Source of the DNA: Bolinopsis microptera
Lineage: Eukaryota; Ctenophora; Tentaculata; Lobata; Bolinopsidae
Direction of reading: 5' to 3'
Assembly (NCBI RefSeq): GCF_026151205.1
Contig: NC_087075.1
Span: forward strand, 12,260,303-12,324,302
Length of the DNA: 64,000 bases
Positions within the stretch are counted from its first letter, which is position 1. Every line of letters starts with the position of its first letter. The notes under the pieces were generated by a model, which saw only the letters and a list, made by a program, of their open reading frames with translations, did not search any database and was not told where the DNA came from. Shown here one piece after another: positions 35,018 to 63,901 of the stretch. The position numbers were made by a program, and so were the translations under genes.

Positions 35018-35062
35018 TATGGCATGTATTGGTGAATTTAGTACAGTGCAATCAGCTATCCT

Positions 35063-35130
35063 GATTGGGGGATGGGGGTTAAAAATTGTCCAAAACGTGA
35101 TTACGTAATATTATGTGAACGACCCCTTAC
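35063..35130. mobile_element. MITE family M1, half copy upstream of F-box B
   Basis: Only the right half is present: TACGTAATATTATGTGAACG then ACCCCTT, with the GGGG-rich inner block. It starts 45 bp before the B start codon, where B stops matching C, so the insertion and a deletion replaced about 130 bp of the B upstream region. Confidence 0.65.
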
Positions 35131-37833: not shown

Positions 37834-38220
37834 TATGACATGTATTGGTTTGAATTGAGTACAGTGCAATCAGCTATCTTGATTTAATACCTTCATAAAC
37901 CTATGAGAATGTAATCTTTTATATATAACAAAAATTTAAAAAGAATAGCATTAAATGAAAACAATTTGGAATTTGGATAACAAATCAGTTTTTAAACTTT
38001 TAAACCTTTTTATGGTATTATCAGGTAACAAAATAATTGGTAATCAAGGATTGGCAATACATTTCGAGCCGGTTCCTAATGAGACAAAAGCAAATAATTA
38101 TACATTGAAAACGATTTTAATTCATGCATCATGCTAGAAAATAAGAAAAATATTTTACCTTTATATAAGCGCATGCACGACAGTGGTATCAGTTAAAAAT
38201 GTATAACAAGTTTTATTGTG

Positions 38221-39560
38221 TTAGGACTCATATTCGTCATCTTCATCATCAGCTGTTTTACAGGGGCAGATTTCCATAAAATAATCAATCCACTCGTCGT
38301 AACAATATTGATTCAACAAACGACTCCTGACTGCTTTGATATCAATTTCATTAATCCGCTCTAGTTTTGAACAACTGTAAACCATCGACCGTAAATCAAC
38401 ACAATTATCAAATTCTATTTTAAACATCTTGTGAAGGACAAGACATTCCAAATCTTCTGCACCAAAATCAACATATTTGAACTCCGGCAGTTCTGGACAT
38501 ACAATCTTGCTGATGTAACAAAACGCATCTTGTACAATTCTGAGGTGTCGAAGATTGCGGGAGTAAATTTCAAGAGGATATACATGTGCATGTAAATATT
38601 GACCTGCGTAGTCCCTGTCCCAGGTGTGACACATGTCTAAACCTATAATTTCTAGAGACCTTATAGTGGTGTTTTTCAAAAGCCTTCCCAGTAAAACATT
38701 CAATACCAGTGACTTATATGAAGGAGGTATTCGAAAGTATTTTCATTATCAAAGTTAACAAATGGGACATTGCCAGGAGTATCAGTTGCCTGTAGAATAA
38801 CTTTAGTTAGGTGTGGCAGTGTCGTAGCAATAACATCGATCATGTCAAACGTTTCCTTAGATCTATCTATTATATATATTGCAACATGAAGATTGAAGAT
38901 GGATCAGTTCTTTTGACTTGGATAGGTATTCGTTTAGGATGTCTTTGTATAAGGGTGGAAGGAACACTATCTCCTTGTAAGGAGAACGATCTTCAATGCT
39001 GCATTTTAATTTATATAAGACAAAAACAAGTTTTTGAAGTCGTTCCAGTCGAACACTTTCCAAGTTCTTGAGATATTCGCCCTTTTTGTATTTCTGCAGG
39101 ATCATGATATTGTAGGTTGACTTGAGAGATAGAACATATCTTCCATCAAGTTTTCTGAGGTTATGAGGAGATATAGGAAGGATTAAACTTAGGACAAAGT
39201 TTCTACTAACAAACTCAGCAATAGATTTACAGGTTGCTGCCATCGTACTGATATCTGAATGAGGCAGAAATGAAAAGATCATAATTTGCAATTCCTCAGG
39301 TAGACCCAAGAACACCGATGCCTGGAGAAGTTTATTCTTATAACTTTATAACTCGAGTATTTTGAAGTAACATAATTCTGTGTTACAAGTTGGTTCCGTG
39401 CTTGATCATAGTTAACTATTGCTGGATCAGTTCCATATAGTCGCACCATCATGGAGGAAATTGTACTAGAAAGATGCGACTTTTTATGTTGAAAATCAGT
39501 ACGTTCGAGTCTTTTTCCTTTATCTCTGAGCCATTTACGTTTCGTTTGTCTTTCTGCCAT
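38221..39560 (-). pseudogene. F-box D, broken copy of the A subfamily
   Basis: Homologous to A throughout (RDKGKRLERTDFQHKK; LPEELQIMIFSFLPHSDIST; LKLDGRYVLSLKSTYN-like; CPELPEFKYVDFGAEDLECL). The frame breaks at about 39340 (extra bases in TTATAACTTTATAACTCGAG compared with A) and again between 38700 and 38900, where A's middle is rearranged (an added TATATAT stretch at about 38870). Three separate open pieces remain. It is a probable pseudogene. Confidence 0.8.
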
Positions 39561-40119: not shown

Positions 40120-43100
40120 TTACCCGAATATGGATTCATAGTCAGCTGGTTTTACCGGAGTTACATAATCAGATTTAGCTCGATTGCTACACCCCAGTAA
40201 CTCTTCATTTTCCAGCTCAGACATGGTACTAAACAGTGGTACACTGGTTCCGTCCTGATTGTTGGCTTGTTTTTCTGTATGTTTGTTTGTCTGTTTGTTT
40301 GTGTGCATCTCAAACTGCTCCCAAGGTATGTTGTCAGGAACCTCGTCCCAGTGATCTGGTTCGGTTGTTTCTGTTGTGGAATGTGTGGAGAGCAGAGCGT
40401 CCCAGAAGGTTTGGGGTTTATCTGCGATTAATTTACGGAATTCGCTAAGTTTTTCTGACAGTGTCTTGTCTTTTGGGCTCGAACTGAAATTGGTAAATTC
40501 TATCAACGTTTTATCATCAAAAAGTGCTTTTTTTATTGAAAAAACTGCAAGAGGTTATAAAGAAATTACAAGTGATATTAAACCTTGACAGAATCCACCC
40601 ACCTAAATAACCCACCTTACAGTATTATTATACCTTACAACTAAATAACTCACCTTAAAGTAGACTTCTCATTGCAAATCAGGGCGCCAGTCTTGGTAAC
40701 CTGCAAGTTAACAAAGCAGACCACACCACCAACTTTGACCTCCTCACCAGCACTATACACAACAACCTCCCCTGCAGTCTCAGTATCACCTATCACCACC
40801 ACTGTCCGGCTGTCAGTCTGTTTGTCTGTTTGTAGCACCTTCCCAACAAGATCACACTCCGACACACTCACTGGCACAGAGGAGACAGTGCAGATAGGTT
40901 TAGCTGACATGTGGGTGTAATCTCCCTTTGTTTCACGAAAAAGGCTTAATTTCGAGGAGGAAAGAGTCAGACTGCTTCCTCGGAACGAACTACAGGATAT
41001 GTTATACATTTTATAACAGCGCCCTTCTTTCAGTGGTACTTGTTGTTCTGCACGCCAAATAGTCAGGAAGTACGGTTTTGTGTTAGGCTGCAGGGCACAA
41101 TGTATTCTATGCTTCACCAGGGAGATAACTTTTCGAGGGGGACATCGTTCTTTAAGTTCTTCCATAAGTTGTTTATTGTGCTGAACCTCTTGTCTAGAAC
41201 GCTCTTTTTCAGAATACTCCGCAAGCATTTCACGCTGTGACGGGTTAAGTAGACTTTGTAGAGAACTGGGGTCGGGATGATTTTTAATGAGCTCATACAG
41301 TTCCTGACCAGAATCGATACGTTTTACCGCTTCATTACTGATACTCTTGCTTCTTTTAGCCTTTTCACTTTTTAATAATTTGTGGGTTATATCCTCAATT
41401 ATCTTATCCCTCGTTCGGCCATATTCTTCTTGTCTTTTTCTCTCGTCCTTTTCCGACCGAAACATTTTCTTGCCTGACAAATTTCTAGATTTCATAAGCC
41501 GAATCAAAAGTCATCCATCGAAATCTATTGTATGATAGAATATAGATGAGATAATTCAAAAGATGATAAAAATCCAGAAAGCTTCCTTAACTTCTTACAA
41601 ACAAAATTCTAACCACAAGGTAAAGTTTCCAAGAACTGCACAGGGTACCGTCTGATAACAACTACTTCCATACACGCACAAGTACCCCCGTCAGGAGCTA
41701 GCACGCTGATTGGTAGAGAAGGCATCGTGTTCACATCTGAAAATCATTTTAGTGGTTTTAAGAGGAAATAGGTAGATTGCAACATGATTATTGCTAATAA
41801 AACCATTGCTATGATATTGTGTTCCATCTCATATCAGTTGCAAGGAGTTTTTAAGGAATATAGGGCGAGCAGAACCAAAATTTCAAACCAACATTTAAGA
41901 TGTGATTAGCAGATAAACTAAACAATCATAGCAAGGTGGTTGGAGCGAAATTTCAATTGAATGATTCATTATATAGTAATCTTGATTAAGTGATATTTGT
42001 CAGTAGCTCAGTAGCAAAAACGCCGATTCTAAAACGCTTGAATAATTAAAACAAACCAGTGTATCCGAGCTTGGCACTCCATTTAGCAGGTCGGACACAA
42101 TTATAGTTTAGTTTAAGTTTTAGAGTTGCTTTAGCTTGCAATGGAGGAATTCCATCCGCGTGAGGCCCGGTTATAGAGGAAGAGAAGCTCACTATCTTCG
42201 AACCAACTTTTATCGCCTGAACGATTTGTAAGACTTAAATACAAATTTACAATAATGTTATTAAGGATCAAGCAACTTTTCTCTAAGTACATAATTACTG
42301 TAAAGACGTTAATTTCATTAACAACTTTATTAACAACAATAACTACCATTGAGTTCTTTCAATCTAATGAGCAATAATCATGGCTAATTGCCAAATAACC
42401 CCAGTAATAAGTTAATTACAGTAATTACAGTAATTACAGTAATTACAGTAATTAAAGTAATTACAGTTATTACAGTAATTACAGTAAATCAGGCTTACCC
42501 GACTCTGAATAAGGACAGAGAGAGGATTATCCAGAACACATTCCAAACAATACCAACCATCAGACACCTCAATAGTCTTACCCCCAATCCCAGACACAAC
42601 CAGTGTCATTGGTTTAGCAGGACTGTCATCCTTCTCCGTGACCCTCCTCAGAGCTGACCTTCTCCCTTCATCTACCTCAACAGAGTAGCGCAGGAGGAGT
42701 TGTGACATGATGTTCTCAGGAGTGAGCACGCAGCCAGCGTACACACCTGGCTGGCAGCGCTCCAATCCAGCACATTTCCATACAATGAGACGGTAATGAT
42801 TTAAAACCCACTTCTCGGATATGAACTGCTGTTTGATTTTTGGAGCTTTAAGAAGGGCTTGGCGGAATTCAGTGTACCCTGCTGATTTACCATCTCGTAA
42901 CTTAAGATTGATCCCACATCCTGATAACATCACTTCCTCCCCATCATTCTCTAAGAAATAGTCAGGTTTAGTGAATCTAAATTCCTGTGCTGATTGTGCA
43001 GTGACCTCCTCAACCCCACAGGACACGCCCATCTCAAACAACTCCTCTGATTCATAATACCGGGGTGGAGGGAGTGATGACATGGATTGACGGGCGGAGC

Positions 43101-46100
43101 ACAGTGGACCAGGTTTAATGAGTTTGCTAGATGTGGGGAGGGTGGTGGGTTGTTTCCACAGCATGCTGGAGGGGACTTCCTTTTTAGGTAGGGGTTGGGT
43201 TGAGGGACATGTTTTACTGTAGGGGGTTATAAATGATGTTCCCTCTGCTGGACATTCTTCAATGGTGCTGAAAATAGTTCTTCCAATTAATTTTGCATAG
43301 TAAGTTGTGTAGTAAGTTGTGTAGTAAGTTGTATAGTAAGTTGTGTCAAAATTAACATTTTAACTATAGTTAATATCGCAAAAATATGAAAGAAGCAAAC
43401 TCTCAACCGGTCGTTATCTAGATTCAGTAGATTGCCAAACAATTCAGAAGAGTTTAAAATCGCAAAATAACAACCTCTCAAGTTTAGGAGAACTGATAAG
43501 AGGAGAGAAACCAGGTCTTATTCTGTGACTCACAGGAGAGGACACAACAGCACGTGATCTTGTTTTGTCTGTAACAGGGCTGTTGAAGCCAGACCGTCTG
43601 GAAATGCGCCTGTAACAAATAGGACAATCAGTGTTTTAATTGGTGTGATATTATAATAGTGGTGATAGAAAAAAACATAAACTTTGACATATAATTATTT
43701 AGAAAAAAAAAACAAACGCGATAAAGTTGCAGCCTATTAGAAATAAGTGTTCAATGAAACTCCACTTTTAAGTAAACCTGCGTTTGTTGAGGTATTGTAT
43801 CGGAGTAGAAGGATCATCAGTACTCTCTCTTCTAACCCGACTAATAACACTCTCTTCTGATGCACTGAGTTGTCTCCTCCTTACTTTATCTGATGGGGTA
43901 TCCTCCCTTTTAGTCTGATCCGTCTCTCTGGCACGCTTGGGATTTTGTGCTAGAGACAAACTTGGTTTAGACCCAGTTTTGAATATCGGAGTGATAGGTT
44001 TAGGTGTGATACTTTCAGAGCTCCTTATTTTGAGACGTGGTTTAGAGGAATGTGAAGCCGAGGAGGGTAGTCGAGGTTTGTTATGATCAACACTGGCAGG
44101 AGTAGCTTGAGAGGATCTAATCAGATCGAAAGATTTTTGGCACACTGAAACACCTTTACCGCTCGCAGTGGAAAACCCAGTTGCCACCCCAGAAGGTTTT
44201 GGCACTTGTGAGGATCTTATGTGATCTAAATCATCTTCTTGGATCTTAGCCGGAGCACCACCTGCTGTTGAGAACCCTGAGCTTAGGGTGACTTTTGCTG
44301 GTGCCTGTGAGCATCTGACAGCAGATAATGAATCTTCTGCAATATTGACAGGGACTCCGCTTGCAGTTGAAAAACCAGTGAGAGCTTTTTTATTCGGTAC
44401 TTGAGATGACCTGATATGATTTAACGAGTTTTCTGAGACCCTGACTGGCGCCCCGCTTGCTGTCGAGAAACCAGTCATAGTTGCCGGCTTTAAGGGAATT
44501 ATATGGGGAGAGTGTGATGGTTTTGATCCAGAAGATGAATTCTCAGCTGAAGATTCAGTTGCGGAAGATTCCTTATCCGGTACTTCTAAGTTCAATGGTT
44601 TTGATCCAGTTTCATCTATAGCGTCTGGAATGCCGGTAAAAGATACCTGCTTTCCGCCAGTTTTCTTAACTGCTGAAACTTGGGACAATCTAACAAAATC
44701 TAAAGATTTGGCTGAAAATTCAACGTCTCTCCCTGATGCAGTTGAAAATCCTGCAAACTTAAAACTGGGATGACTATTATTGGATGGTTCTTGCTTATCA
44801 GGTAGTAACGGTGGTTATAACCTTTGAGGCAGGCTTGAAACCACCATCATTGAGATTAGTCTGATCAAGATCAGAAAAGTCCTCTCCAAAGAAACTAATG
44901 GGATCTTTAGCTTTGAGTGCTGGTTCATTGACTGAAGAGGCCTTGGTTAAAGTTGGTACTTTTGGACTAGAAGTGGACGGTTTTGGCTTATTAGTAGTAA
45001 CGGTAGTAATAACCTTTGAGGCCGTCTGGAATCCACAATTACCGAGATTAGTCTGATCAAGATCAGAAAGGTCCTCTCCAAAGAAACTAATGGGATCTTT
45101 AGCTTTAGGAGCAGGTTCATTGACTAAAGAGGCCTTGGTGAAAGTTGGTACTTTTGTACCAGATGTGGACGGTTTTGGCTTATTAGTAGTAACGGTAGTA
45201 ATAACCTTTGAGGCCGTCTTGAATCCACATTTATTGAGATTAGTCTGATCAAGATCAGAAAGGTCTTCTCCGAAAAAACTAATGGGATCTTTAGTTTTGG
45301 GATCTGGTTTATTGACAGGAATAGAAGCCTTGGTGAAAGTTGATACTTTTGACGTATCTAAATCAGAGAAATCTTCGCCAAAAAAGTTTACACTTTTCTT
45401 TGAAGATTCACCTTGGTTATTTTTGGATTTTTTTAAATCAGAAAAGTCCTCCTTGACAAACAAGGCTGCAGCGTTATTGGACGCAGAGGTAAAGCCTTTG
45501 AATTGATTTTGGGGAGTCGCTTTGTGTGTTACATGCTCATCTTCGTTAGATTCGTTTGCCATCGATAGAGGCATTTGTTTTTCTTTCCCTTTTGTCTTTT
45601 CATCAACTTTTTCGTGCGGAATTTCCTGTTTAATCGAGTGTGAAATACGGAAATTCTCCTTGTTATCTAAGACAGAAATAGCTTTATCCAAGTGATCGTA
45701 AACGTCGTTTGGCCACTGACTAAATGCCAACGAATCTTGGTTACCATCTGAAAGGTTGTCCTTAGAATTCAATTTTGCAGGAGCAAGATTATTGTCATCA
45801 TTTTGTTTCTTAGAAACAACTTCACCCTCATCAATTTTTGATAGAACTTTGTTGGCATGCTCATAAACTTCGTTGGGCCACTGACTGAACCCCAAACTAT
45901 CTGAGTCCCTCTGATTATCAAGCTGAAACTGAGTATCGTTCTGAGTAGCGGTAGGGTACTGGAAGTTTCTTTTCTCCTTTGGAACTGGCGATTTGTCCAG
46001 AGAGTTAATGTTACATGTAAAAGACAAAGGTTCGGCATTGTCCAAAGAAACAGGACGAATAAAACTAGGCTGAGAGTCGTTGTCAGGTTTTAACTTTTCA

Positions 46101-49100
46101 ATTAATACCTCCCCTTGAACAGCATCTGAAATCTCATTCGTCACATTATTCTCTAGAGAGGAAATCTTCGTGTCTGAGGAATCTTTCTTTTCTGCCATCT
46201 CTGAAAGGTCAGTGACAGGTTGTTCATCTTCAGATGCATCATATGGTACCCGCATCTGATTAAGAAGAGAAGAGATTTTTTCTGAATTATTTCCGGAAGT
46301 TAAACTATCAGGTTCTTTAAGTGAATCATCTTGGTTAGAGAAAAGTGAAAAGTCCTTTGAATCAAGTTCATTTTCAGATACTTCAAGATTTACAGCAGAT
46401 TCAGGCGTTTCAGGCCCATTAGTTCCTTTTGGAGACAAATTTTCGGTCAAATGGTAGTTTTGCTCTGACGAAATTGAAAGTTTTGCATCTGATCGTGTAT
46501 CAGGACTAACAAATAACTTCTTCGTAGCCTTCTGCGAAAAAAAAATATCGTTAACAATAAAAATGAATATAATATGCCATAGAAGACGGCAAGATTTATG
46601 GGATATCGAGACTTAATGTTCACAACGAAGAAAATTCTAAAGTAAATGCCCATTGCCCACTGCCCAGTGGCTGTACCAAAATGAAAGAGTTTGTCAAAAA
46701 TAAAAGAGTTTATCCAAAATTAAAGAACGATTCCAGAAAGTTGTATCGGGTGACTGAGAGTTCACAAAATATTGGAGCCTTACTTCAAAATGTTAGGGTT
46801 GCTCTTGCGTTTCCGCGACGGCGTATGGACCCATAAATGCCATAACATGAGAACTATAGCACCTAGACAGTCGAATAATAGCTTAAAAGATGCGGAATGT
46901 GCATGTTTATATTCAACTTATTAATCACTACAGAGCTAGATGACGAAGAGAAATTATAACATGACTGATTTTTTAAATTTCCTCGAACAAAGCTTTCGAC
47001 TAGCGGGTTTTTAGTATATAATAATAGTAGCTAGATTGAATTATATATCAATTTCCAAAAAATAAAAGTTGTCAGAAGTGGGATTTGAACCCACGCCCAC
47101 ATTCATGGACCAGAGTTTGAATCTGGCGCCTTAACCACTCGGCCATCCTGACGTGTTTTAAGGAGAACTTTGCAAACTTTATACTGCCGAATAGAGCCTG
47201 CGTAACTTAATCGTTGTTTCTATACATGAATTGTGAGTAGCTGCAGATATCTAATGTCATTACCTCATGGATAATATAACGTTATGTTATGCTTCTTATA
47301 ATAAATAAATAATAAAATTTGGTAGCTTAAACACAAACTCTAAGCCCAGTGGATAAACCACAAAACTTATGCTCTATTGTGTGAAACAAAGATACTAGAT
47401 CAAGATAACTATCAAGGAGTGTATGCATAGGACATAAAAAGTTTTGGAACGAAGATGACATGCTTGTGAAGCGAGCTAACAGTCTAATTGCTAATAAGTT
47501 CAAAAAGATCATGACATTAGGTTGCATCCTAAACAGTTTAAGCAAATAACATAAAGTTATTATATTGTCAATTAATCGCTCATGCAGTCATGCCATAACT
47601 TTTCTTAAACAGGTGAGTTTTTAATAATGTTTTGAACAGATCAACATCGGAACAAGTCTTAATTTCAATTGGTAGTTGGTTCCAGATTTTCGGAGCAACA
47701 GTCTGAAACGCTCTTGGGTGTGATCTTGTAGATCCGACGGGTAGGTGTAAGGAGGAAATTCTTCTGCTACTCGAACTAACAAATGTTACTAGATCACACA
47801 GATATGCAGGAGCAACACCATTGACTGCTTTGAAAATCAGTAAGCATAACTTAAACTCAATCCTCTCCTTCACCTTGAGCCAATGAAGGGATTTGAGCTT
47901 CTCCTCGACTGAGTCTCTCTTCTTTAATCCAAAAACCCGACGGCATGCTCGGTTCTGAATGTTCTGCAGCTGCGTAATTGAGGCTTGACTACAACCATAG
48001 TAAAGTGCATTGCAGTAGTCAAGCGATGAGATTACAATTGCTTGAGTCAGTGTTCCCATCTGTTTGGTTGTTAGGAATGTTTTCATCTTAGCAAGGTCTC
48101 TTAGTTTCAGAAAACACGATGTTTTAAGTTGCTTGATTTGCTCACCAAAGTTTAGTTGAGAGTCGAGACGAAATCCGAGGTTCTTTGCAACAGGTGACAG
48201 CCTGACACACGTCTCAGAGTTAACAAACACGCCCCCTATAGACAGCTGCTGGAGAACAAGCGGTGTCCCAAAGACAAGAATCTCAGTTTTTCCTGCATTG
48301 AGCTGTAGATAATGTTTTTTCATCCAGTCATTAATTTCTTGGAAACATTTGGGAACATCGTTGATAAGGACGGTGGGCTCCTCGTTTGGCTTGAAACTTT
48401 TATACAGCTGATGATCGTCGGCGTAACCCTGGATGGAGAAGTTCAAATCATGTGCTGCTGAGTACAAAGAGCGAATGTAGATGTTGAACAGGACCGGACC
48501 CAGCACAGAGCCCTGTGGGACTCCAAACTTAATCACTATCTCATAAGATTCCTCATTTCCAACTTTAATCGTTTGACATCTACCTGTGAGGAAGCTGCTG
48601 AACCATTTCCAAGCTGTCCCTGTTATTCCCAACTCATTTCTGAGGATGTTCAGTAGTTTGCAGTGGTCAACTGTATCAAAAGCTGCGCTGAGATCTAGGA
48701 GAAGAACAACAGTTGCCTTGCTTTCTGTAGATGCAATGAGTAGATCGTTAACAACTCTCACAAGCAGAGTCTCGGTGCTGTGTTTTGATTTGTATCCAGA
48801 CTGCTGTGGGATGTTCAGGTTGTTGTTTTCTAGATGTTCATTTAGACGCCTGAGCACTACTCTTTCTATCAACTTGCCCACAAAACTAAGGTTAGATATT
48901 GGTCTATAATTCTTGAGATTATCACTATCTAATCCCTGGCCCTTGATCAGGGGTGTGATATGAGCTAGTTTAGCGCCATCAATACTGCCAGAAGATAATG
49001 AAGCATTTACTGTGTCAACTAAGACGGGTAGTAGAACCTCAAGGTTTTCTTTAAAGATGTTTGCAGGTAGAGGGTCAATTGAAGAAGACTTGATCTCAGA

Positions 49101-50809
49101 TGCCTTGATTATCTCCTCTAGTTCTTCTAGAGTAGTTGGAGAGAACTCAGCTAGTTTTTCTCCGCAGTAAGAGGGCGTTTGATCGTCAGACTCCACATGA
49201 TCAAAGTTATTTCGTATTGCCTTTATTTTCTCCTGAAAATATACGTTAAAGTTTTCGACTGTGTCCTTGAGAGACTCCGACGAAGGCAACACAATGCTTT
49301 TATGCCGATCAAGAAAGGTGTCCACAAATCTAAAAAGACTCTTAGAAGAATAGGAATGCTTTATGAATTCGACTCGAAAAACTCATGTTTCTTCCTGTCT
49401 GAGAGTTCTGTGCACTGCTCTCTGATTGATTCATAGTGTTTTTTTATCGTCTTACCGGGGTGGAAAATGTAAATCGGGGCGCGTTAAACTATTACTGTTA
49501 GCTTACTATTTACTGTCTAGGTGTTATAGTTCTCATGTTATGGCATTTATGGGTCCACACACCGTCGTGGTAGGCCGGGCCGTAACCATGGAAACGCGAG
49601 AGAAACCCTAAAATTTTGGAGTAGGGCTCCAAATAATTTTTGTGAACTCTCATTCACCCAATACAACTTTCTGGAATCGTTCTTTAATTTTGGAAAAACT
49701 TTTGTATTTTGGTACTGTATGCCCACGTGACGAGAAAAAAATTGATATTTCGAAAGTAGCAATAAATTTCCAACCTGCGAACTCTTTAAAGGACGAGGAG
49801 GAGTAGAAAACCCTCCCCCAACAGACGGGACTTTATCAGTTGATATACTCAAGTGCTGGGAAGGGGTTTCCATGTTTGTTTCCCATGTTAATACAGTGTC
49901 TGAGGTCATCTTTTCTGCTCTTATACTGTCACCTTAAGGTTTATCAGTATCAGATTGTAGTTATTCGGGGAAGGTTTCTTCAAAATATCTCAGGTTTTTA
50001 CGAGAGAGAAGTTTCATACTTGAGATACAACTGCATCAACAATAATATATAAATAACAAATATCTTACTTCAGTTTTCTTACCTCCGTGATACCTGCTGT
50101 CACCAGATAAAATAATAGGTGAATGAAAGGAGGGAGTTTCAAATGACTTAGCGATACTAACATCCCTGCTAATGTCTCCAGAGATAGGCGTGCTGGATTG
50201 GGGGGAGGACCAGGGACTCTCCTGAAAATAGAGATGTCAGGTATTGTAATCACATGATTGCTTGTAAGTTCTGATTCATAATTCAACGAAGAAAATCATC
50301 TACTGTTGATTGCGACATGGACATTACTAAAGTGCTAAAGCCCCGAGATTAAAGATTTATGAAATTATTTTCATGATATAATGTACTCTACTTTCTAATT
50401 ACGGACTTACACCGAGAGAAGACAAAGAAAAGGGTGACTTCAAACAGCTACTTCTCTGAGTTTTAAGAGGGGTAGTAAAAGTTAATTCTCTGTTGCGGTC
50501 ACTTTTGTCAAACTTGGGAGTGCAGCTTCTTTCCCTGATTAAATTTAGTTACTGATTAGATGATATAAATGGAGGGCTACTTAGCGTTAGCACCCATTGT
50601 GACCATTACAATAAGACATTATGAATTTATCTTCATAACACTTTTATGCAGATTATAAAAAACAATTATAGTTATCCAAAGAATCTGTTGCTTGCAGACA
50701 CTTACAGCCTAGCTCTTGGGTAGAGTGTGAAGATGTCATTGTAACTGAACTCTACCTCACTTGCATCCTCGGGAGTCTCCCAGGAAAACTCCTTATCAGC
50801 TGGTTCCAT
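40120..50809 (-). CDS. BRCA2: BRCA2, homologous-recombination mediator, 11 exons
   Basis: BRCA2 loads RAD51 on RPA-coated single-stranded DNA in the nucleus. Exons: 50706-50809, 50411-50534, 50083-50221, 49775-49914, 43778-46531, 43475-43609, 42499-43267, 42057-42216, 41614-41736, 40654-41473 and 40120-40483. All junctions are in phase. The total is 5,632 nt, one more than a multiple of three, because of a 1-nt insertion at about 44796. The product is about 1,876 aa. The N-terminus MEPADKEFSWETPED has a Trp that could be the PALB2-binding site. The large exon carries BRC repeats. Then come the helical domain (SAGYTEFRQALLKAPKIKQQ), OB1 (LSPENI-like TPENIMSQLLLRYSVEVDEG, DGWYCLECVLDNPL), OB2 (PDGGTCACMEVVVIRRYPVQ), the tower (KKMFRSEKDERKRQEE through KNHPDPSSLQSLL) and OB3. 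The tail VTPVKPADY may match the CDK/RAD51 C-terminal site. It starts 592 bp from a divergent BTB gene. Confidence 0.9.
42416..42486. repeat. 9-bp repeat CAGTAATTA at a BRCA2 donor
   Basis: About eight copies. Begins 13 bp inside the intron after the donor at 42498 (gene strand GTAAGCCTGATTTACTGTAA). Confidence 0.85.
43298..43342. repeat. 12-bp repeat TAAGTTGTGTAG, about 4 copies
   Basis: A short tandem array in the BRCA2 intron just upstream of the exon starting at 43267. Confidence 0.75.
43778..46531 (-). other. BRCA2: BRCA2 exon 5: BRC repeats plus a threefold 64-residue duplication
   Basis: Five units contain GFSTASG or GFSTAGG followed about 18 residues on by (I/V)R(S/C/L)SQ: FAGFSTASGRDVEF, TGFSTASGAPVRV, TGFSTASGVPVNI, SGFSTAGGAPAKI and TGFSTASGKGVSV. 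The N-terminal side has three near-identical units of FFGED(L/F)SDLDQTNL, then GF(K/Q)(T/P)ASKVITTVTT and a Pro/Ser spacer, plus an outlying FKGFTSASN and another FFGEDFSDLD. The vertebrate LFDE half-motif is not in its usual place after FxTA. The frame slips by +1 near 44796, between the third duplicated unit and the first canonical BRC unit. Confidence 0.8.
46671..46893 (+). repeat. Left arm of a 220-bp inverted repeat in a BRCA2 intron
   Basis: Includes TTAAAGAACGATTCCAGAAA, GGACCCATAAATGCCATAAC and ATGAGAACTATAGCACCTAG. The inverse copy lies at 49490-49712, roughly 80% alike by eye. Confidence 0.8.
47070..47152 (-). tRNA. tRNA-Leu (CAA), intronless
   Basis: Type II tRNA. GTCAGGA/TTCTGAC acceptor with wobble, A box TGGCCGAGTGGTTAAGG, anticodon arm CCAGA-TTCAAAC-TCTGG (CAA), variable arm, B box GGGTTCAAATCCC, discriminator A. 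Located in the 3.2-kb BRCA2 intron, same strand as BRCA2. Vertebrate tRNA-Leu(CAA) usually has an intron; this copy has none. Confidence 0.93.
47580..49440 (-). pseudogene. CR1/L2-type reverse transcriptase, nearly intact
   Basis: Motifs: FRFVDTFLDRHKSIVLPSS, ITPLIKGQGLDSDNLKNYRP, QQSGYKSKHSTETLLVRVVN, LLLDLSAAFDTVDHCKLLNI, FGVPQGSVLGPVLFNIYIRS, IQGYADDHQLYKSF (YADD), LQLNAGKTEILVFG and a C-terminal IWNQLPIEIKTCSDVDLFKT, giving a complete RT. The frame is open for 581 codons. Upstream, one frameshift at about 49375-49385 separates it from KKHEFFESN. There is no endonuclease, so it is a dead 5'-truncated copy. Confidence 0.85.
47580..49445 (-). mobile_element. 5'-truncated CR1/L2-like LINE
   Basis: Inserted in the BRCA2 intron 46532-49774, between the two arms of an inverted repeat, same strand as BRCA2. 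Coding similarity begins at HYESIREQCTELSDRKKHEF (about 49440). The 3' UTR downstream of 47580 has no clear end. Confidence 0.85.
49490..49712 (-). repeat. Right arm of the 220-bp inverted repeat
   Basis: Inverse complement of 46671-46893, including GTTATAGTTCTCATGTTATG and GGCATTTATGGGTCCA. It ends about 60 bp from BRCA2 exon 4. Confidence 0.8.
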
Positions 50810-51401: not shown

Positions 51402-53224
51402 ATGTCTAGTTTCCTGGTTCCAGCAGATTTCGGACTCAACAAACTTAAAAGCAGGCTCCACGGCAATGTCCTCATCTCTCTTGCAGGAGGAAAACAACTG
51501 CGGGCTAACTCTGTCATACTCTCCCTAAACAGTCCGATATTTGAAGGAATGTTTGCGGAGGTGGACCCAGTGCCCGAGTTAGATCTGAGTGAGTATAGCA
51601 GTGCAGCTGTTCAAATGTTCATTGAAGCTATATACACTGGGAAAGTAACACTGGACACAGTTTTAGTTAGAGATGTGCACAAGATAGCCTATGTTTACAA
51701 GGTAGCTTGGCTCCAGAGACGTTGTGAAAGTTATTTGGGAAGGTTGGTCTGCCATGTGGACGGAGATGATTACAACAGTCTATTTTACTTGTTTGAAGAG
51801 GCGAGATGTATAGTGGAGATGACAACACACAAATCACTTCTTAATGAGCTTATGGAGAAGATCACACGGTCTCACAGAACAAAAACTGATTTTGTGACCC
51901 GATACATGGCAGATTATGAGACTTTGTCCAAATCTCAGCTTGAGCTCATGATCAATGTGACAAGAGATGATCCGGCTATATTAGTGAAAATTGTAATACA
52001 ACACATTGAAGCAAATAGTCTCATGTTTGATGACGCTACGGAATACATATTGACTAATTTGGATCTTTTGAGTTGCCTTTTGAGTGACAAAGTTCATTAC
52101 GATTGTTTGTTCGACCTTCTCTTTGAAAAAGTCGTTAACTTATCATTCGATGATTTGAAACTCATAGTGACGCTGCACAAGTCCACATTCGGAGCTTACA
52201 TGACGTCTTGCAAAGAAGCTTCCTGGAAAGGACAGAACAGTGACACAGGATCTCGACAAAGTGCCGTGTCGAGCTGTTCAACGCGATCAGACTCGGTTGA
52301 TAGCTTACCAGTTATTTCACGTCTTGAGTCAGCAGGTAGTGTACGAATCAGTCCTGTACCTGAGGACACAGCTAGAAGCAAAGCAGTTGTTTACCAGCTC
52401 TTCCAGTGACAGCGAGTGAAATTTCTATAATAAGCAATGCTTCTACCATAGCAAGTGACTTTTCTATAATGAGCAATGTTTCTACCGTAGCAAGTGATAT
52501 TTCCATAATAAGCAATGTCTCTACCGTAGACACAAAGTTTTCAGACCCGCCAAAAGTTCCAACAACTATTAATAACTTGTTTCATTCAGGCAAGTCCCTA
52601 CAAAAGCTTTCATTTCACGGAATCATTGCTTTAAAGACAGTTCTGAACACCAAGAATGTGTCAAGCCTTTTCATGGTGATTGAAGCTCTGACATTCTTAC
52701 CCAACATCTCGACATATCAAGCCATAGATCTCCTAAAATCCGCTACAAAGGAGCATAATTGGGCACGAATACCTCCCAAGTTTCTGGAAAGTTTTGCAAG
52801 ACACCCCCACACGCAGCTAGTACAACAGATCAAGAAAACTCTAGCACTCTGCTCAACTAGAGACTGTTTGCAACTTGAATCTAAAAACTTTACAACTCTC
52901 CATGATCTGGTAACAAAAGGAGCGACTGTCCAGTTTCAGCTTCCCGCTAGATTTGGAGCGGGAAGATTTTCACTGGACGTTCAACCATTTGATAACGATA
53001 GAAACTTTGAAATCAAGTTGAATGACACGAAAGAATCCCAGGTACCAGCAGAAAAACTACATCTGTTCGTAAAAGAATGGGACAGTTACCGTGGCAACAA
53101 ACTACTGAATAGGCATGTGACTTGGTGTGATAGACCAGTTGTTAGAAGAGGGAAGATTAGTTGGGGGGAAGTAACAGAGTTCCGGAGGATCAAACTTGTG
53201 GTGTATTGTGATATGAGGCTGTGA
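51402..53224 (+). CDS. BTB/POZ-domain protein, two exons, about 583 aa
   Basis: Exons 51402-52335 and 52407-53224 with a 71-bp intron (CAG/GTAGTG to CTCTTCCAG). Phase 1 matches on both sides and the total is 1,752 nt including the stop. Residues about 15-115 form a BTB fold: NVLISLAGGKQLRANSVILS, LNSPIFEGMF, ELDLSEYSSAAVQMFIEAIY. Then comes a BACK-like helical region (LFYLFEEARC, ELMINVTRDDPAILVKIVI). A Ser/Thr-rich linker has three repeats of SxISIISNxSTVASD near 52415-52530, and the C-terminus has no named domain. BTB proteins often link CUL3 to substrates; that is inference. If the intron is retained the protein ends QLFQ at 52409 (335 aa). The last ten codons and stop are the first unit of the 32-bp satellite. 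Confidence 0.75.
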
Positions 53225-53274
53225 AACTTGTGGTGTATTGTGATATGAGGCTGTGAAACTTGTGGTGTATTGTG
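53192..53274 (+). repeat. 32-bp minisatellite, left part (includes the BTB stop codon)
   Basis: Unit AAACTTGTGGTGTATTGTGA + TATGAGGCTGTG, 2.6 copies, beginning in coding sequence (KLVVYCDMRL then TGA). Interrupted at 53274 by the TIR element and resumed at 55782. Confidence 0.9.
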
Positions 53275-55781: not shown

Positions 55782-56187
55782 ATTGTGATATGAGGCTGTG
55801 AAACTTGTGGTGTATTGTGATATGAGGCTGTGAAACTTGTGGTGTATTGTGATATGAGGCTGTGAAACTTGTGGTGTATTGTGATATGAGGCTGTGAAAC
55901 TTGTGGTGTATTGTGATATGAGGCTGTGAAACTTGTGGTGTATTGTGATATGAGGCTGTGAAACTTGTGGTGTATTGTGATATGAGGCTGTGAAACTTGT
56001 GGTGTATTGTGATATGAGGCTGTGAAACTTGTGGTGTATTGTGATATGAGGCTGTGAAACTTGTGGTGTATTGTGATATGAGGCTGTGAAACTTGTGGTG
56101 TATTGTGATATGAGGCTGTGAAACTTGTGGTGTATTGTGATATGAGGCTGTGCAACTTGTGGTATATTGTGATATGAGGCTGTGAAT
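55782..56187 (+). repeat. 32-bp minisatellite, right part, about 12.6 copies
   Basis: Same unit and phase as 53192-53274, highly uniform, with two substitutions in the last units. Long minus-strand ORFs across it are artefacts of the repeat. Confidence 0.9.
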
Positions 56188-56671: not shown

Positions 56672-59600
56672 TTATTTGAGTTCAGGCTGTTGTGTCCTAT
56701 CCTTCATTTCCTTGTTCTGCGTGAACTCAATGAGCATCTTCATCACCTGAAAAAGCAACATAATCAATCACTTTTGCGAAACTTAACAAAACTTTAAAAA
56801 TTTGGATCATCGGAATCACTAGCAATTTCAAGCATTCTGATTTTGGATTTCAAGGGTTCTTCCTTTCATGCACATAATATTACACTGTGTCTGTGACCAT
56901 CTCGTCTTAATTAAACTCCTTATTGTGACCCCTTACCTCGTTATCATAAGGAGGAGGTGGTTGTTCCTTCCTTATTGTGACCCCTTACCTCGTTATCATA
57001 AGGAGGAGGTGGTTGTTAAACTCCTTAGTGTGACCCTTTACCTCGTTATCATAAGGAGGAGGTGGTTTTTAAACTCCTTAGTGTGACCCTTTACCTCGTT
57101 ATCATAAGGAGGAGGTGGTTGTTAAACTCCTTAGTGTGACCCCTTACCTCGTTATTATAAGGAGGAGGTGGTTGTTAAACTCCTTATTGTGACCCCTTAC
57201 CTCGTTATCATAAGGAGGAGGTGGTTGTTAAACTCCTTAGTGTGACCCCTTACCTCGTTATTATAAGGAGGAGGTGTGGCCTCCTTAGTGTGACCCCTTA
57301 CCTCGTTATCATAAGGAGGAGGTGGTTGTTAAACTCCTTAGTGTGACCCCTTACCTCGTTATCATAAGGAGGAGGTGGTTGTTAAACTCCTTATTGTGAC
57401 CCCTTACCTCGTTATCATAAGGAGGAGGTGGTTGTTAAACTCCTTAGTGTGACCCCTTACCTCGTTATCATAAGGAGGAGGTGGTTGTTAAACTCCTTAG
57501 TGTGACCCCTTACCTCGTTATCATAAGGAGGAGGTGGTTGTTAAACTCGTTAGTGTGACCCCTTACCTCGTTATCATAAGGAGGAGGTGGTTGTTAAACT
57601 CCTTAGTGTGACCCCTTACCTCGTTATCATAAGGAGGAGGTGGTTGTTAAACTCGTTAGTGTGACCCCTTACCTCGTTATCATAGGGAGGAGGTGGTTGT
57701 TAAACTCCTTAGTGTGACCCCTTACCTCGTTATCATAAGGAGGAGGTGGTTGTTAAACTCCTTAGTGTGACCCCTTACCTCGTTATCATAGGGAGGAGGT
57801 GGTTGTTAAACTCCTTAGTGTGACCCCTTACCTCGTTATCATAGGGAGGAGGTGTGACCCCCTAGCCTTAGTGTGACCCCTTACCTCGTTATCATAAGGA
57901 GGAGGTGGTTGTTAAACTCCTTAGTGTGACCCCTTACCTCGTTATCATAGGGAGGAGGTGTGACCCCCTAGCCTTAGTGTGACCCCTTACCTCGTTATCA
58001 TAAGGAGGAGGTGGTTGTTAAACTCCTTAGTGTGACCCCTTACCTCGTTATCATAGGGAGGAGGTGGTTGTTAAACTCCTTAGTGTGACCCCTTACCTCG
58101 TTATCATAGGGAGGAGGTGTGACCCCCTAGCCTTAGTGTGACCCCTTACCTCGTTATCATAAGGAGGAGGTGGTTGTTAAACTCCTTAGTGTGACCCCTT
58201 ACCTCGTTATCATAGGGAGGAGGTGTGACCCCCTAGCCTTAGTGTGACCCCTTACCTCGTTATCATAAGGAGGAGGTGGTTGTTAAACTCCTTAGTGTGA
58301 CCCCTTACCTCGTTATCATAAGGAGGAGGTGGTTGTTAAACTCCTTATTGTGACCCCTTACCTCGTTATCATAGGGAGGAGGTGTGACCCCCTAGCCTTA
58401 GTGTGACCCCTTACCTCGTTATCATAAGGAGGAGGTGGTTGTTAAACTCCTTAGTGTGACCCCTTACCTCGTTATCATAAGGAGGAGGTGGTTGTTAAAC
58501 TCCTTAGTGTGACCCCTTACCTCGTTATCATAAGGAGGAGGTGGTTGTTAAACTCCTTATTGTGACCCCTTACCTCGTTATCATAGGGAGGAGGTGTGAC
58601 CCCCTAGCCTTAGTGTGACCCCTTACCTCGTTATCATAAGGAGGAGGTGTGACCCCCTAGCCTTAGTGTGACCCCTTACCTCGTTATCATAAGGAGGAGG
58701 TGGTTGTTAAACTCCTTAGTGTGACCCCTTACCTCGTTATCATAGGGAGGAGGTGTGACCCCCTAGCCTTAGTGTGACCCCTTACCTCGTTATCATAAGG
58801 AGGAGGTGGTTGTTAAACTCCTTAGTGTGACCCCTTACCTCGTTATCATAAGGAGGAGGTGGTTGTTAAACTCCTTAGTGTGACCCCTTACCTCGTTATC
58901 ATAAGGAGGAGGTGTGACCCCCTAGCCTTAGTGTGACCCCTTACCTCGTTATCATAAGGAGGAGGTGGTTGTTAAACTCCTTAGTGTGACCCCTTACCTC
59001 GTTATCATAAGGAGGAGGTGGTTGTTAAACTCCTTAGTGTGACCCCTTACCTCGTTATCATAAGGAGGAGGTGTGACCCCCTAGCCTTAGTGTGACCCCT
59101 TACCTCGTTATCATAAGGAGGAGGTGGTTGTTAAACTCCTTAGTGTGACCCCTTACCTCGTTATCATAGGGAGGAGGTGTGACCCCCTAGCCTTAGTGTG
59201 ACCCCTTACCTCGTTATCATAAGGAGGAGGTGGTTGTTAAACTCCTTAGTGTGACCCCTTACCTCGTTATCATAAGGAGGAGGTGGTTGTTAAACTCCTT
59301 ATTGTGACCCCTTACCTCGTTATCATAGGGAGGAGGTGTGACCCCCTAGCCTTAGTGTGACCCCTTACCTCGTTATCATAAGGAGGAGGTGGTTGTTAAA
59401 CTCCTTAGTGTGACCCCTTACCTCGTTATCATAAGGAGGAGGTGGTTGTTAAACTCCTTAGTGTGACCCCTTACCTCGTTATCATAAGGAGGAGGTGGTT
59501 GTTAAACTCCTTATTGTGACCCCTTACCTCGTTATCATAGGGAGGAGGTGTGACCCCCTAGCCTTAGTGTGACCCCTTACCTCGTTATCATAAGGAGGAG

Positions 59601-62600
59601 GTGGTTGTTAAACTCGTTAGTGTGACCCCTTACCTCGTTATCATAAGGAGGAGGTGGTTGTTAAACTCCTTAGTGTGACCCCTTACCTCGTTATCATAAG
59701 GAGGAGGTGTGACCCCCTAGCCTTAGTGTGACCCCTTACCTCGTTATCATAAGGAGGAGGTGGTTGTTAAACTCCTTAGTGTGACCCCTTACCTCGTTAT
59801 CATAGGGAGGAGGTGTGACCCCCTAGCCTTAGTGTGACCCCTTACCTCGTTATCATAAGGAGGAGGTGGTTGTTAAACTCCTTAGTGTGACCCCTTACCT
59901 CGTTATCATAAGGAGGAGGTGGTTGTTAAACTCCTTAGTGTGACCCCTTACCTCGTTATCATAAGGAGGAGGTGTGACCCCCTAGCCTTAGTGTGACCCC
60001 TTACCTCGTTATCATAAGGAGGAGGTGGTTGTTAAACTCCTTAGTGTGACCCCTTACCTCGTTATCATAAGGAGGAGGTGGTTGTTAAACTCCTTAGTGT
60101 GACCCCTTACCTCGTTATCATAAGGAGGAGGTGTGACCCCCTAGCCTTAGTGTGACCCCTTACCTCGTTATCATAAGGAGGAGGTGGTTGTTAAACTCCT
60201 TAGTGTGACCCCTTACCTCGTTATCATAAGGAGGAGGTGGTTGTTAAACTCGTTAGTGTGACCCCTTACCTCGTTATCATAAGGAGGAGGTGGTTGTTAA
60301 ACTCGTTAGTGTGACCCCTTACCTCGTTATCATAAGGAGGAGGTGGTTGTTAAACTCCTTATTGTGACCCCTTACCTCGTTATCATAAGGAGGAGGTGGT
60401 TGTTAAACTCCTTAGTGTGACCCCTTACCTCGTTATCATAAGGAGGAGGTGGTTGTTAAACTCCTTAGTGTGACCCCTTACCTCGTTATCATAAGGAGGA
60501 GGTGGTTGTTAAACTCCTTAGTGTGACCCCTTACCTCGTTATCATAAGGAGGAGGTGGTTGTTAAACTCCTTAGTTTGACTCCTTACCTCGTTATCATAA
60601 GGAGGAGGTGGTTGTTAAACTCCTTAGTGTGACTCCTTACCTCGTTATCATAGGGAGGAGGTGTGACCCCCTAGCCTTAGTGTGACCCCTTACCTCGTTA
60701 TCATAAGTAGGAGGTGTGACCCCCTAGCCTTAGTGTGACCCCTTACCTCGTTATCATAAGGAGGAGGTGTGACCCCCTAGCCTTAGTGTGACCCCTTACC
60801 TCGTTATCATAAGGAGGAGGTGTGACCCCCTAGCCTTAGTGTGACCCCTTACCTCGTTATCATAGGGAGGAGGTGTGACCCCCTAGCCTTAGTGTGACCC
60901 CTTACCTCGTTATCATAAGGAGGAGGTGGTTGTTAAACTCCTTAGTGTGACCCCTTACCTCGTTATCATAAGGAGGAGGTGGTTGTTAAACTCCTTAGTG
61001 TGACCCCTTACCTCGTTATCATAAGGAGGAGGTGGTTGTTAAACTCCTTAGTGTGACCCCTTACCTCGTTATCATAAGGAGGAGGTGGTTGTTAAACTCC
61101 TTATTGTGACCCCTTACCTCGTTATCATAGGGAGGAGGTGTGACCCCCTAGCCTTAGTGTGACCCCTTACCTCGTTATCATAAGGAGGAGGTGGTTTTTA
61201 AACTCCTTAGTGTGACCCCTTACCTCGTTATCATAAGGAGGAGGTGGTTGTTAAACTCCTTAGTGTGACCCCTTACCTCGTTATCATAAGGAGGAGGTGT
61301 GACCCCCTAGCCTTAGTGTGACCCCTTACCTCGTTATCATAGGGAGGAGGTGTGACCCCCTAGCCTTAGTGTGACCCCTTACCTCGTTATCATAGGGAGG
61401 AGGTGGTTGTTCCTTCCCTGTCATCCAGTAGTAGAGATCCCAGTCAGAGTCCACTGTGTTTATCAGAATATCAAACTGTTCTACTATCTTGCGGGGCAGA
61501 CTCGGGCCATGTTCAGAGAAAAATGTGCTGAGAAAAAGTTTAAAACTTGGTTATCCATTGTGATTTGAGAATCAGTATGATACGGTCCAGGCAAGTTATT
61601 CTTGAAATGCAATAATCAGTCATTCTGAAACTATTGATAATTATATATGACATTCAGCCATTGTTCTGGCAAGTGAGAAAAGATTTAATACAACTGTTAT
61701 TTCGATCAATTCTTTGAAGAGTCTCCTGAAGAGTCTCTCTCTGTTAATAAAGACTGACCTGAGGATGAGACAGTTCTCTGCAATGCCACGTTTCCTACTC
61801 TGCCATATCAGTCTGGCCCGTAGAGATTCTTCTGCTTCGTTGATTCTAGCAGGGTAGCTAGGCACTGTGAACTCTGTGTCATCCTGAAATATTAAGTTTA
61901 GCTTTTATTGTCACTCCTAATCACATTATGAGTAAAGAAGAGATATTTAGTGTGCACCTTAGAGTGAACAAACACTTAAAAACCCAAGGGAAGTTGGTCG
62001 TTTAGCTCCGGACAGTCTATGCAACGTCTATGCAACGTCCGTGCAACAACAAAAGAACCGTCTATGCAACGTCTATGCAACGTCCCTGCACAATGAACAC
62101 TCTATGCACACTCCCTGCACGGTCAGTCTATGCAACGTCTATGCAACGTCTATGCAACGTCCCTGCACAGTACCATATGAACACCGGCTACTAGCCGGCT
62201 ACTAGCCGGCTAGTAGCCACTTTTGTAATAACAGCTCCTCAACTTCACATTAACAACCGGCTACTAACCGGCACTTGAAAAGTGGTCACTAGCCGGCTAC
62301 TAACCGGCTACTAGCCGGCTAGTGACCACAAAGTGGCTACAAACCGGCTACTAAGCGGTCACTAGCCGGCTATTAGCCGAGCTCTAAAGCAGACCTATTA
62401 GTAGCCGGTTCTAAACCGGCTACTAGCCGGCACTTGAAAAGCGGTCACTAGCCGGCTACTAACCGGCTACTAACCGGCTAGTAACCACCAAGTGGCTACT
62501 AACCGGCTACTAACCGGTCACTAGCCGGCTCTAAAGCAGACCTATTAGTAGCTCGGCTAATAGCCGGCTAGTGACCGCTTAGTAGCCGGTTAGTAGCCAC

Positions 62601-63899
62601 TTTGTGGTCACTAGCCGGCTAGTAGCCGAGCTCTAAAGCAGACCTATTAGTAGCCGGTTCTAAACCGGCTACTAGCCGGCACTTGAAAAGCGGTCACTAG
62701 CCGGCTACTAACCGGCTACTAACCGGCTAGTAACCACCAAGTGGCTACTAACCGGCTACTAACCGGTCACTAGCCGGCTCTAAAGCAGACCTATTAGTAG
62801 CTCGGCTAATAGCCGGCTAGTGACCGCTTAGTAGCCGGTTAGTAGCCACTTTGTGGTCACTAGCCGGCTAGTAGCCGAGCTCTAAAGCAGACCTATTAGT
62901 AGCCGGTTCTAAACCGGCTACTAGCCGGCACTTGAAAAGCGGTCACTAGCCGGCTACTAACCGGCTACTAACCGGCTAGTAACCACCAAGTGGCTACTAA
63001 CCGGCTACTAACCGGTCACTAGCCGGCTCTTAAGCGGACCTACTAGCCCGGCTAATAGCCGGCTAGTGACCGCTTAGTAGCCGGTTAGTAGCCACTTTGT
63101 GGTCACTAGCCGGCTAGTAGCCGGTTAGTAGCCGGCTAGTGACCACTTTTCAAGTGCCGGTTAGTAGCCGGTTGTTAATGTGAAGTTGAGGAGCTGTTAT
63201 TACAAAAGTGGCTACTAGCCGGCTAGTAGCCGGCTAGTAGCCGGCTAGTAGCCGGTGTTCATATGGTACTGTGCAGGGACGTTGCATAGACGTTGCATAG
63301 ACGTTGCATAGACGTTGCATAGACGTTGCATAGACGTTGCATAGACTGACCGTGCAGGGAGTGTGCATAGAGTGTTCATTGTGCAGGGACGTTGCATAGA
63401 CGTTGCATAGACGGTTCTTTTGTTGTTGCATGGACGTTGCATAGACGTTGCATAGACTGTCCGGAGCTAAACGACCAAGTTACCAAACCCAATTACGTGT
63501 GACAGCAACTAGCAAGGACCTCAAAACACCAACAACCACAAGTCTCACCCTATGTGGCTCACACTCCACAACAATATCCCCAAACATTGTTGTTACATCC
63601 CTGGTTTTCTTGTCCCCAGAACTTAAGGCCCTTATCTTCACAGCTTGAGAGATAGAACTGCTACATTTTGGTGCGATGCGACCCACCAGGGATCTTAACA
63701 TACCTAAACGTCAATAGAGAATTAACTAATTAATTGATTAATTAAATATTAGGGGATAAAATACCTTGAAAGGCTCATACTCAATCATGATGTCGCCAAA
63801 TCCAGATCTTTTGTTATCATGACTGAGTGCTCTGGACTGTGCTTTTTGACAGAGTACTGTGTTGCACTTGGGAACTATCCGACACAAGGACCTCAACAT
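56672..63899 (-). CDS. SDHAF2: SDHAF2, succinate dehydrogenase assembly factor 2
   Basis: SDHAF2/SDH5 promotes covalent FAD attachment to SDHA in the mitochondrial matrix, needed for complex II. Exons: 63765-63901 (1b, coding from 63899) or 63549-63703 (1a, coding from 63701), then 61759-61883, 61383-61527 and 56672-56746. With 1b the protein is 158 aa; human has 166. Conserved features are [20 protein letters not shown], the family's R-LLYESRKRG-LENC core that contacts [18 protein letters not shown], matching [15 protein letters not shown] joined to [13 protein letters not shown]; and a C-terminal QQPELK. Exon phases (0, 2, 0) all agree. The intron 56747-61382 is almost entirely satellite and the intron 61884-63548 holds a palindromic element. 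Confidence 0.88.
56912..61412 (-). repeat. 53-bp satellite, about 84 copies, made of an exon-intron junction
   Basis: The right-most unit is the last 30 nt of SDHAF2 exon 61383-61527 (AACAACCACCTCCTCC + CTATGATAACGAG) and its donor GTAAGGGGTCACACTAAGG. Every other unit repeats this, including GATAACGAG/GTAAGG. Two main variants alternate: type A with GAGTTTAACAACC and type B with CTAGGGGGTCACACC joining the units. The array fills almost the whole 4.6-kb intron. Unit length is not a multiple of three. Confidence 0.95.
61994..63478. mobile_element. 1.5-kb palindromic foldback-like element
   Basis: Begins TTGGTCGTTTAGCTCCGGAC and ends with its perfect inverse. Outer arms (about 61994-62385 and 63060-63478) hold TGCAACGTCTA repeats and GCCGGCTACTA repeats in mirror order. 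The centre carries three tandem blocks of about 247 bp (AGCAGACCTATTAGTAGC near 62387, 62637 and 62886). No transposase. Lies in the first intron of SDHAF2. A clear target duplication is not seen. Confidence 0.75.
63549..63703 (-). CDS. SDHAF2: SDHAF2 alternative first coding exon 1a
   Basis: Acceptor GACGTTTAG, then GT and ATG; 51 codons starting [20 protein letters not shown] and ending ECEPHR at donor GTGAGA in phase 0. Arg/Ser-rich with no acidic residues at first, a classic matrix presequence. Homologous to exon 1b. Confidence 0.65.
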
Positions 63900-63901
63900 A
63901 C
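63765..63901 (-). CDS. SDHAF2: SDHAF2 alternative first coding exon 1b
   Basis: Acceptor TTCTTATCTAG, then GT and ATG; 45 codons starting [20 protein letters not shown] and ending EYEPFK at donor GTATTT in phase 0. Matrix presequence-like. Joining 1b to 1a would give GTA-TGT-TAA, a stop, so the two are mutually exclusive. Confidence 0.65.

Follow-up and report, generated by a model that had tools for sequence, protein, structure and literature searches.

The SDHAF2 gene of the ctenophore Bolinopsis microptera contains an intron built of 84 tandem copies of the end of its own upstream exon, each with the 5' splice site (donor) attached. The gene lies on the minus strand of a 64,000-nt stretch of DNA, hereafter the window (NCBI RefSeq assembly GCF_026151205.1, contig NC_087075.1, positions 12,260,303 to 12,324,302 of the forward strand), in which all positions below are given. 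Its exon structure is predicted from sequence and homology, and the array is known from one assembly, in which the locus is present as one copy. The array is probably a near-neutral 'mirage' minisatellite, such that exon 3 is paired with the first donor, the array is passively removed and normal SDHAF2 is made. The features of the gene and of the array are listed here in transcription order, with a slash marking the cut at splice sites.

About 63765-63901, minus: SDHAF2 first coding exon, copy a (gene model)
About 63549-63703, minus: SDHAF2 first coding exon, copy b (gene model)
61759-61883, minus: exon 2, 125 nt, separated from exon 3 by an intron of 231 nt (gene model)
61383-61527, minus: exon 3, 145 nt, ending in QPPPPYDNE; the exon part of the unit is copied from its final 29 nt (gene model, Pfam match, gapless human alignment)
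56911-61411, minus: 53-bp minisatellite, 85 copies including the exon's own end (Tandem Repeats Finder (TRF), unit decomposition, assembly pattern search)
61381-61382, minus: authentic donor, number 1, GAG/GTAAGGGG (gene model)
56937-61382, minus: 84 intronic units, with GAG closing each before the next GT (donors 2-85; unit decomposition)
57040-57094, minus: donors 82 (57094) and 83 (57041), two weakened donors of the form GTAAAGGG (U1 duplex -6.9 kcal/mol; common form -10.1 kcal/mol)
56937-56988, minus: 52-nt unit with a second exon/intron junction, composed of 20 nt of native intron and 35 nt of native exon (1 mismatch) with a 3-nt overlap
56747-56936, minus: last donor (85) followed by native intron as far as the acceptor TTTTTCAG; these 190 nt are regarded as the length of the intron before expansion
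56672-56746, minus: exon 4, ending in the stop codon; acceptor exon start at 56746 (gene model, human alignment)

Structure and origin of the SDHAF2 intron array

The original prediction, made from the sequence of the window, was that an SDHAF2 intron consists of about 84 copies of the upstream exon end and its donor, and the analysis bears this out. TRF reports a 53-bp period at 56911-61411, with 85.0 copies and 90% matches. Cutting the array at its donors by script gave a concordant 85 donors, the real one and 84 intronic copies, and 84 intronic units, of which 82 are 53 nt long, one 48 nt and one 52 nt. The array-bearing intron measures 4,636 nt from donor 1 (exon end 61383, acceptor exon 56746). 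AG/GT is present at all 85 donors, and AGGT occurs 84 times in the intron besides the exon's own. The 11-mer AGGTAAGGGGT (cut as AG/GTAAGGGGT) is identical at 81 of the 85; the remaining donors read GTAAGGAG (two) and GTAAAGGG (two), and the predicted equality of all copies therefore holds for the 81 and fails for these four. Two main unit types make up the array. In 25 of the 84 units a different 11-nt patch replaces the usual intron/exon joint, and the exon part there is about 23 nt rather than 29. The homogeneity is such that the sequence upstream of a donor is unique for 10 of 85 donors when 60 nt are considered, for 56 of 85 with 250 nt, for 78 of the 82 examined with 500 nt and for all 72 examined with 1,000 nt.

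The identification of the gene as SDHAF2 is confirmed by matches to Pfam Sdh5 (PF03937; 6.3e-21, 74.5 bits against a curated cut-off of 27) and to human SDHAF2 (6vax_B; 9e-27), the latter free of gaps across the join of exons 3 and 4. The residues RGIAE of the protein are presumably an instance of the RGxxE motif of SDHAF2/Sdh5. A search of the assembly with the PF03937 profile returned a single match, exon 3 of this locus; since this search runs exon by exon and its counts are lower bounds, a second SDHAF2 copy is unlikely though possible. The predicted exon order is 1a or 1b, 2, 3, 4. Exons 1a and 1b are similar and stand in tandem, each preceded by TAG and both in phase with exon 2; they are possibly alternative mitochondrial presequences. 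By eye, a fold-back element can be discerned in intron 1 (about 62000-63475), in which long inverted ends (TTTAGCTCCGGACAGTCTATGCAACG) flank 11-bp and 249-bp repeats.

The composition of the unit points to its source. The 53-bp unit consists of 29 nt taken from the native exon (most units differ from it once, by a T in place of C) and 26 nt of native intron, matched exactly in 8 units, which have the intron's A at position 14, and with one mismatch in the common units. As 29 plus 26 exceeds 53 by 2, the founding junction shares 2 nt. Coding sequence precedes the first donor and other intron sequence follows the last, and the unit, like those of boundary minisatellites, spans the exon-intron boundary, as that boundary is placed by homology. 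Human SDHAF2 aligns without gaps to the residues that were copied (..P..[YF][DE]NE), so the exon predates the array. With up to 3 mismatches allowed, a 25-nt core of the unit matched the 264,652,675-base assembly (264.7 Mb, N-masked stretches apart) 85 times, always inside the array and at no other locus, and its reversed control matched nowhere. Recurrence at unrelated loci, which would have made the exon overlap secondary, was thus not found in this assembly, and the array does not look like a dispersed satellite.

Judged from these sequences, the array originated at the exon 3 boundary itself. A segment of about 53 bp over the 3' end of exon 3 and the start of an intron of about 190 nt would have been tandemly duplicated at microhomologies of 2-3 nt; expansion and homogenisation, to which minisatellites in this repeat-rich genome are prone, would then have brought it to 84 extra copies. 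Five of the nine single-copy unit types fall in the last 7 of the 84 units. Homogenisation is thus poorest at the intronic end, as is usual for the edge of a tandem array. That a foreign satellite was inserted here, or that the array is an artefact of assembly, is scarcely credible: although the genome is rich in tandem repeats, which cover 34.5 of the 264 kb examined (window included), no other copy was found in the assembly, and at its two edges the repeat passes into native exon and native intron, respectively.

Products of the 85 donors

As predicted, the conserved ending NE-VMKML is obtained from the first donor only, which yields a protein of 165 amino acids (aa) with exon 1b or 159 aa with exon 1a. 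The further expectation that distal donors would usually cause a frameshift gives way to a more uniform outcome: all 84 later donors lead to a premature stop at one and the same codon, giving products of 159 aa (1b) or 153 aa (1a) with an altered C-terminus. The stop is a TAA at the second donor for 83 of them and a TGA at the join for donor 2. It lies at least 50 nt before the last junction for 82 of the 84, the values for donors 2 and 3 being -4 and 49 nt. A stop this far upstream of the last junction generally triggers decay. Moving from donor 1 to donors 84 and 85 shortens the intron from 4,636 to 242 and 190 nt and lengthens exon 3 from 145 to 4,539 and 4,591 nt, respectively.

All 84 wrong products carry AG/GT at the join, because exon 4 starts with GTG, and one more splice from donor 1 would restore the exact mRNA in every case, which is a matter of arithmetic and not evidence of use. 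The AG/GT of each unit might accordingly act as a dual-specific or recursive site, parts of the array being cut out silently and wrong products re-spliced. The 84 AGGT sites, the restorable products and the precedent of UBC, which uses a tandem array of dual-specific sites (PMC10809524), favour such stepwise removal. The unit looks by eye like a poor acceptor, for which no score was computed, with GAG at the cut and a pyrimidine tract broken by TATGATAACG, and fly recursive segments, typically 9-15 kb, are longer than the whole intron; we regard this route as very improbable. The arrays of UBC and VCX3A resemble that of SDHAF2 in having AGGT in each tandem repeat, but the UBC repeats are coding, 228 nt long and in frame (PMC10809524), whereas the SDHAF2 units are intronic and out of frame: 82 of 84 are 53 nt long, and a stop follows from every distal donor.

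Donor choice and the fate of the array

Differences in strength and flanking sequence between sites usually obscure how a splice site is chosen. The 85 donors of this array stand in near-equal surroundings, are the same over 11 nt in 81 cases and differ mainly in their distance from exon and acceptor, in a gene of which a single copy was detected. The copies are good donors, as the predicted U1 pairing of the common form (-10.1 kcal/mol) is the strongest of the gene's four (the other three -5.7, -9.0 and -8.1; consensus site -14.6).

Between near-equal 5' sites, the upstream one is reported to be favoured under exon definition and the downstream one under intron definition (Carranza et al. 2022, PMC9225289). 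The upstream preference is heightened when the intron before the exon is short and the one after it is long, and in five human minigenes carrying a pair of identical strong 5' sites under exon definition, splicing was confined to the upstream one (PMC9225289). Donor 1 is therefore expected, since exon 3 has an intron of 231 nt upstream and one of 4,636 nt downstream. We propose that exon 3, at 145 nt, is recognised by exon definition together with the donor closest to it, number 1, and that the array would leave with the rest of a single 4.6-kb intron as passive, nearly neutral sequence. A small leak to later donors is possible and would end in a premature stop and mostly in decay. With the first donor selected through exon definition, the array would be tolerated. 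Correct splicing must occur if the gene is needed, as this is the sole PF03937 match and its frame and conserved residues are intact.

Several points weigh against first-donor choice. In the human data, the downstream 5' site was preferred in each of the four architecture classes as long as sites were not filtered for equal strength, and the exon-definition rule and the threshold of about 250 nt are themselves derived from human genes (PMC9225289). Intron 2 is short, and donors 84 and 85 give introns of a length suiting intron definition. The GC contents of array and exon are about equal (0.476 and 0.469), a feature tied to intron definition (PMC9225289). The predicted accessibility of donor 1 is no better than that of the copies. 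The competition among near-identical donors envisaged in the original prediction stands, but the choice of the first is not the sole published expectation. When sites were weakened, larger exons were mostly skipped (PMC9225289).

Should intron definition win, the last donors, 190 and 242 nt from the acceptor, would be mainly used, producing a mostly stopped transcript and a failing gene. Human short-intron cases do prefer the downstream 5' site (PMC9225289), and the introns of donors 84 and 85 fall below 250 nt; the gene, however, is the only PF03937 match in the assembly, with frame, splice sites and conserved residues intact, and we hold this outcome to be highly improbable.

We also considered a hairpin that hides the later donors while donor 1 is freed by its C-for-T difference, and rejected it: donor 1 ranked 12, 33 and 58 of 85 in RNAplfold-type accessibility at three window sizes, and mean openness was no greater for the 19 donors that have the C of the exon than for the remaining 66. 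When the units of 48 and 52 nt are set aside, variation among the first six intron bases is confined to position 5, in 2 of the 82 units of 53 nt; we make no claim of constraint on the donor from this, because homogenisation is too far advanced and independent changes are too few. The intron contains neither AATAAA nor ATTAAA, an absence of polyadenylation signals that says little in a repeat array.

The type of array is known from other systems. The original description of the amphioxus mirages is said to be that of Canestro et al. in 2002. Like the SDHAF2 array, these minisatellites (in Adh3 and the globins BflGb6 and BflGb9) arose by tandem duplication over an exon-intron boundary and have AG/GT in their repeats, and regular splicing appears undisturbed by them (PMC3087553). 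They differ in having 6 and 3 units of 150-160 bp in two haplotypes of BflGb6 and units of 10-72 bp in Adh3; not all of the BflGb6 repeats bear AG/GT, in contrast to all 85 donors here, and splicing was tested in amphioxus (PMC3087553), whereas the SDHAF2 array is known from sequence alone. The minisatellite of human IFI6 (6-16) likewise supplies successive donors (Turri et al. 1995, cited through PMC4526556); two downstream units are used there, giving three mRNA species (PMC4526556), while in SDHAF2 each later donor stops the frame. A tandem duplication of the same founding type, across an intron-exon boundary, is described in a potato RdRp gene, where one duplication created a new intron (PMC4974935); the SDHAF2 intron pre-existed and then swelled. 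No account of the SDHAF2 array was found among open-licence PMC papers, by titles and abstracts for SDHAF2 with tandem repeat, intron or splice. The array thus falls into a known category, that of mirages, IFI6, UBC/VCX3A and boundary duplications; its high copy number, near-identical donors and uniform stop recommend it as a test case but do not make it a new kind.

These precedents bear on the alternative of a leaky decoy array, in which steady use of later donors, followed by stop and decay, would let copy number tune the level of SDHAF2 and hence complex II flavinylation. The uniform stop from all 84 distal donors, placed for 82 of them where decay is expected, and the strong U1 pairing of the common donor fit such a role, as do the downstream units used in IFI6 (PMC4526556) and human segmental duplications, in which 66% of boundary-repeat intron modifications also had support from transcripts keeping the repeat (PMC2812944). 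On the other side, the amphioxus report suggests no interference (PMC3087553), there is no sign here that copy number is under selection, and the genome has other arrays with similar numbers of copies. We consider a leaky array unlikely, and the tuning of complex II assembly proposed earlier is unsupported. The amphioxus, IFI6 and segmental-duplication precedents, together with the class of exon 3, lead us to favour passive removal with first-donor choice.

A bolder idea, which we rate a long shot, is that copy number sets the mode of splicing, the array acting as a switch with built-in repair. If so, few copies would leave an intron below about 250 nt and a wrong, downstream donor, and expansion would move the choice to the first donor; growth of the array would itself be favoured, and wrong products could be re-spliced through AG/GT. 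By the proximity rules in the literature, exon definition should select donor 1 and intron definition donors 84/85, at the other end of the array, so the locus could tell the two modes apart and yield a leak rate for each donor. It is also an example of how much an intron can grow through copies of its own donor.

Other tandem repeats and neighbouring loci

Other arrays were sampled in 20 stretches of 10 kb, which contained 43 minisatellite arrays with units of 15-200 bp. This 200-kb sample includes minisatellites of 78.8, 74.0, 54.9 and 45.5 copies, and the SDHAF2 array has the highest copy number among 58 counted by a small margin, so it is content, not copy number, that sets it apart. A strong donor occurs in the unit of 2 of the 43 sampled arrays, no significant excess over the 0.58 in shuffles (P 0.13). 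Within the window the count is 3 of 15 arrays against 0.19 in shuffles, the window having been picked because of the SDHAF2 array. One of the two sampled arrays with a donor (stretch L031, 7862-8142) overlaps a 205-aa plus-strand open reading frame (ORF) on the other strand, putatively mobile-element-like by eye, and a 79-aa minus-strand ORF. The second is in stretch L027.

Two further repeats in the window deserve mention. A 15-copy array of 42 bp (2354-2986, minus) carries acceptor-like CTCAG/TAATGGTACCCATG (14 exact, 15 with one variant) and donor-like CAG/GTAATAG (13 exact, 15 with variants) and continues into an open frame; going by its sequence it may mirror the SDHAF2 array at the 5' boundary of an exon, in a place where no gene was identified. 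One 32-bp repeat forms two arrays 2.5 kb apart (53192-53274 and 55782-56186), the former overlapping the end of an open frame at 52376-53224 (plus).

Among the neighbouring loci, a BRCA2-like gene (40650-46612, minus) has BRC repeat, helical and OB1 matches above the Pfam cut-off and an OB2 match below it (26.2 against 27 bits). The ORF at 44798-46612 has no Pfam match and is assigned to this gene by position only; a 192-bp repeat of 3.0 copies lies at the gene (44781-45351). A cluster of related F-box-like ORFs occupies 31449-39345 (minus), two members being confirmed by Pfam and the rest judged from translations. A reverse-transcriptase ORF (RVT_1, Pfam) is found at 47580-49382 (minus), and a second region, at 6756-10398 (plus), has ORFs that look similar judging from their translations.

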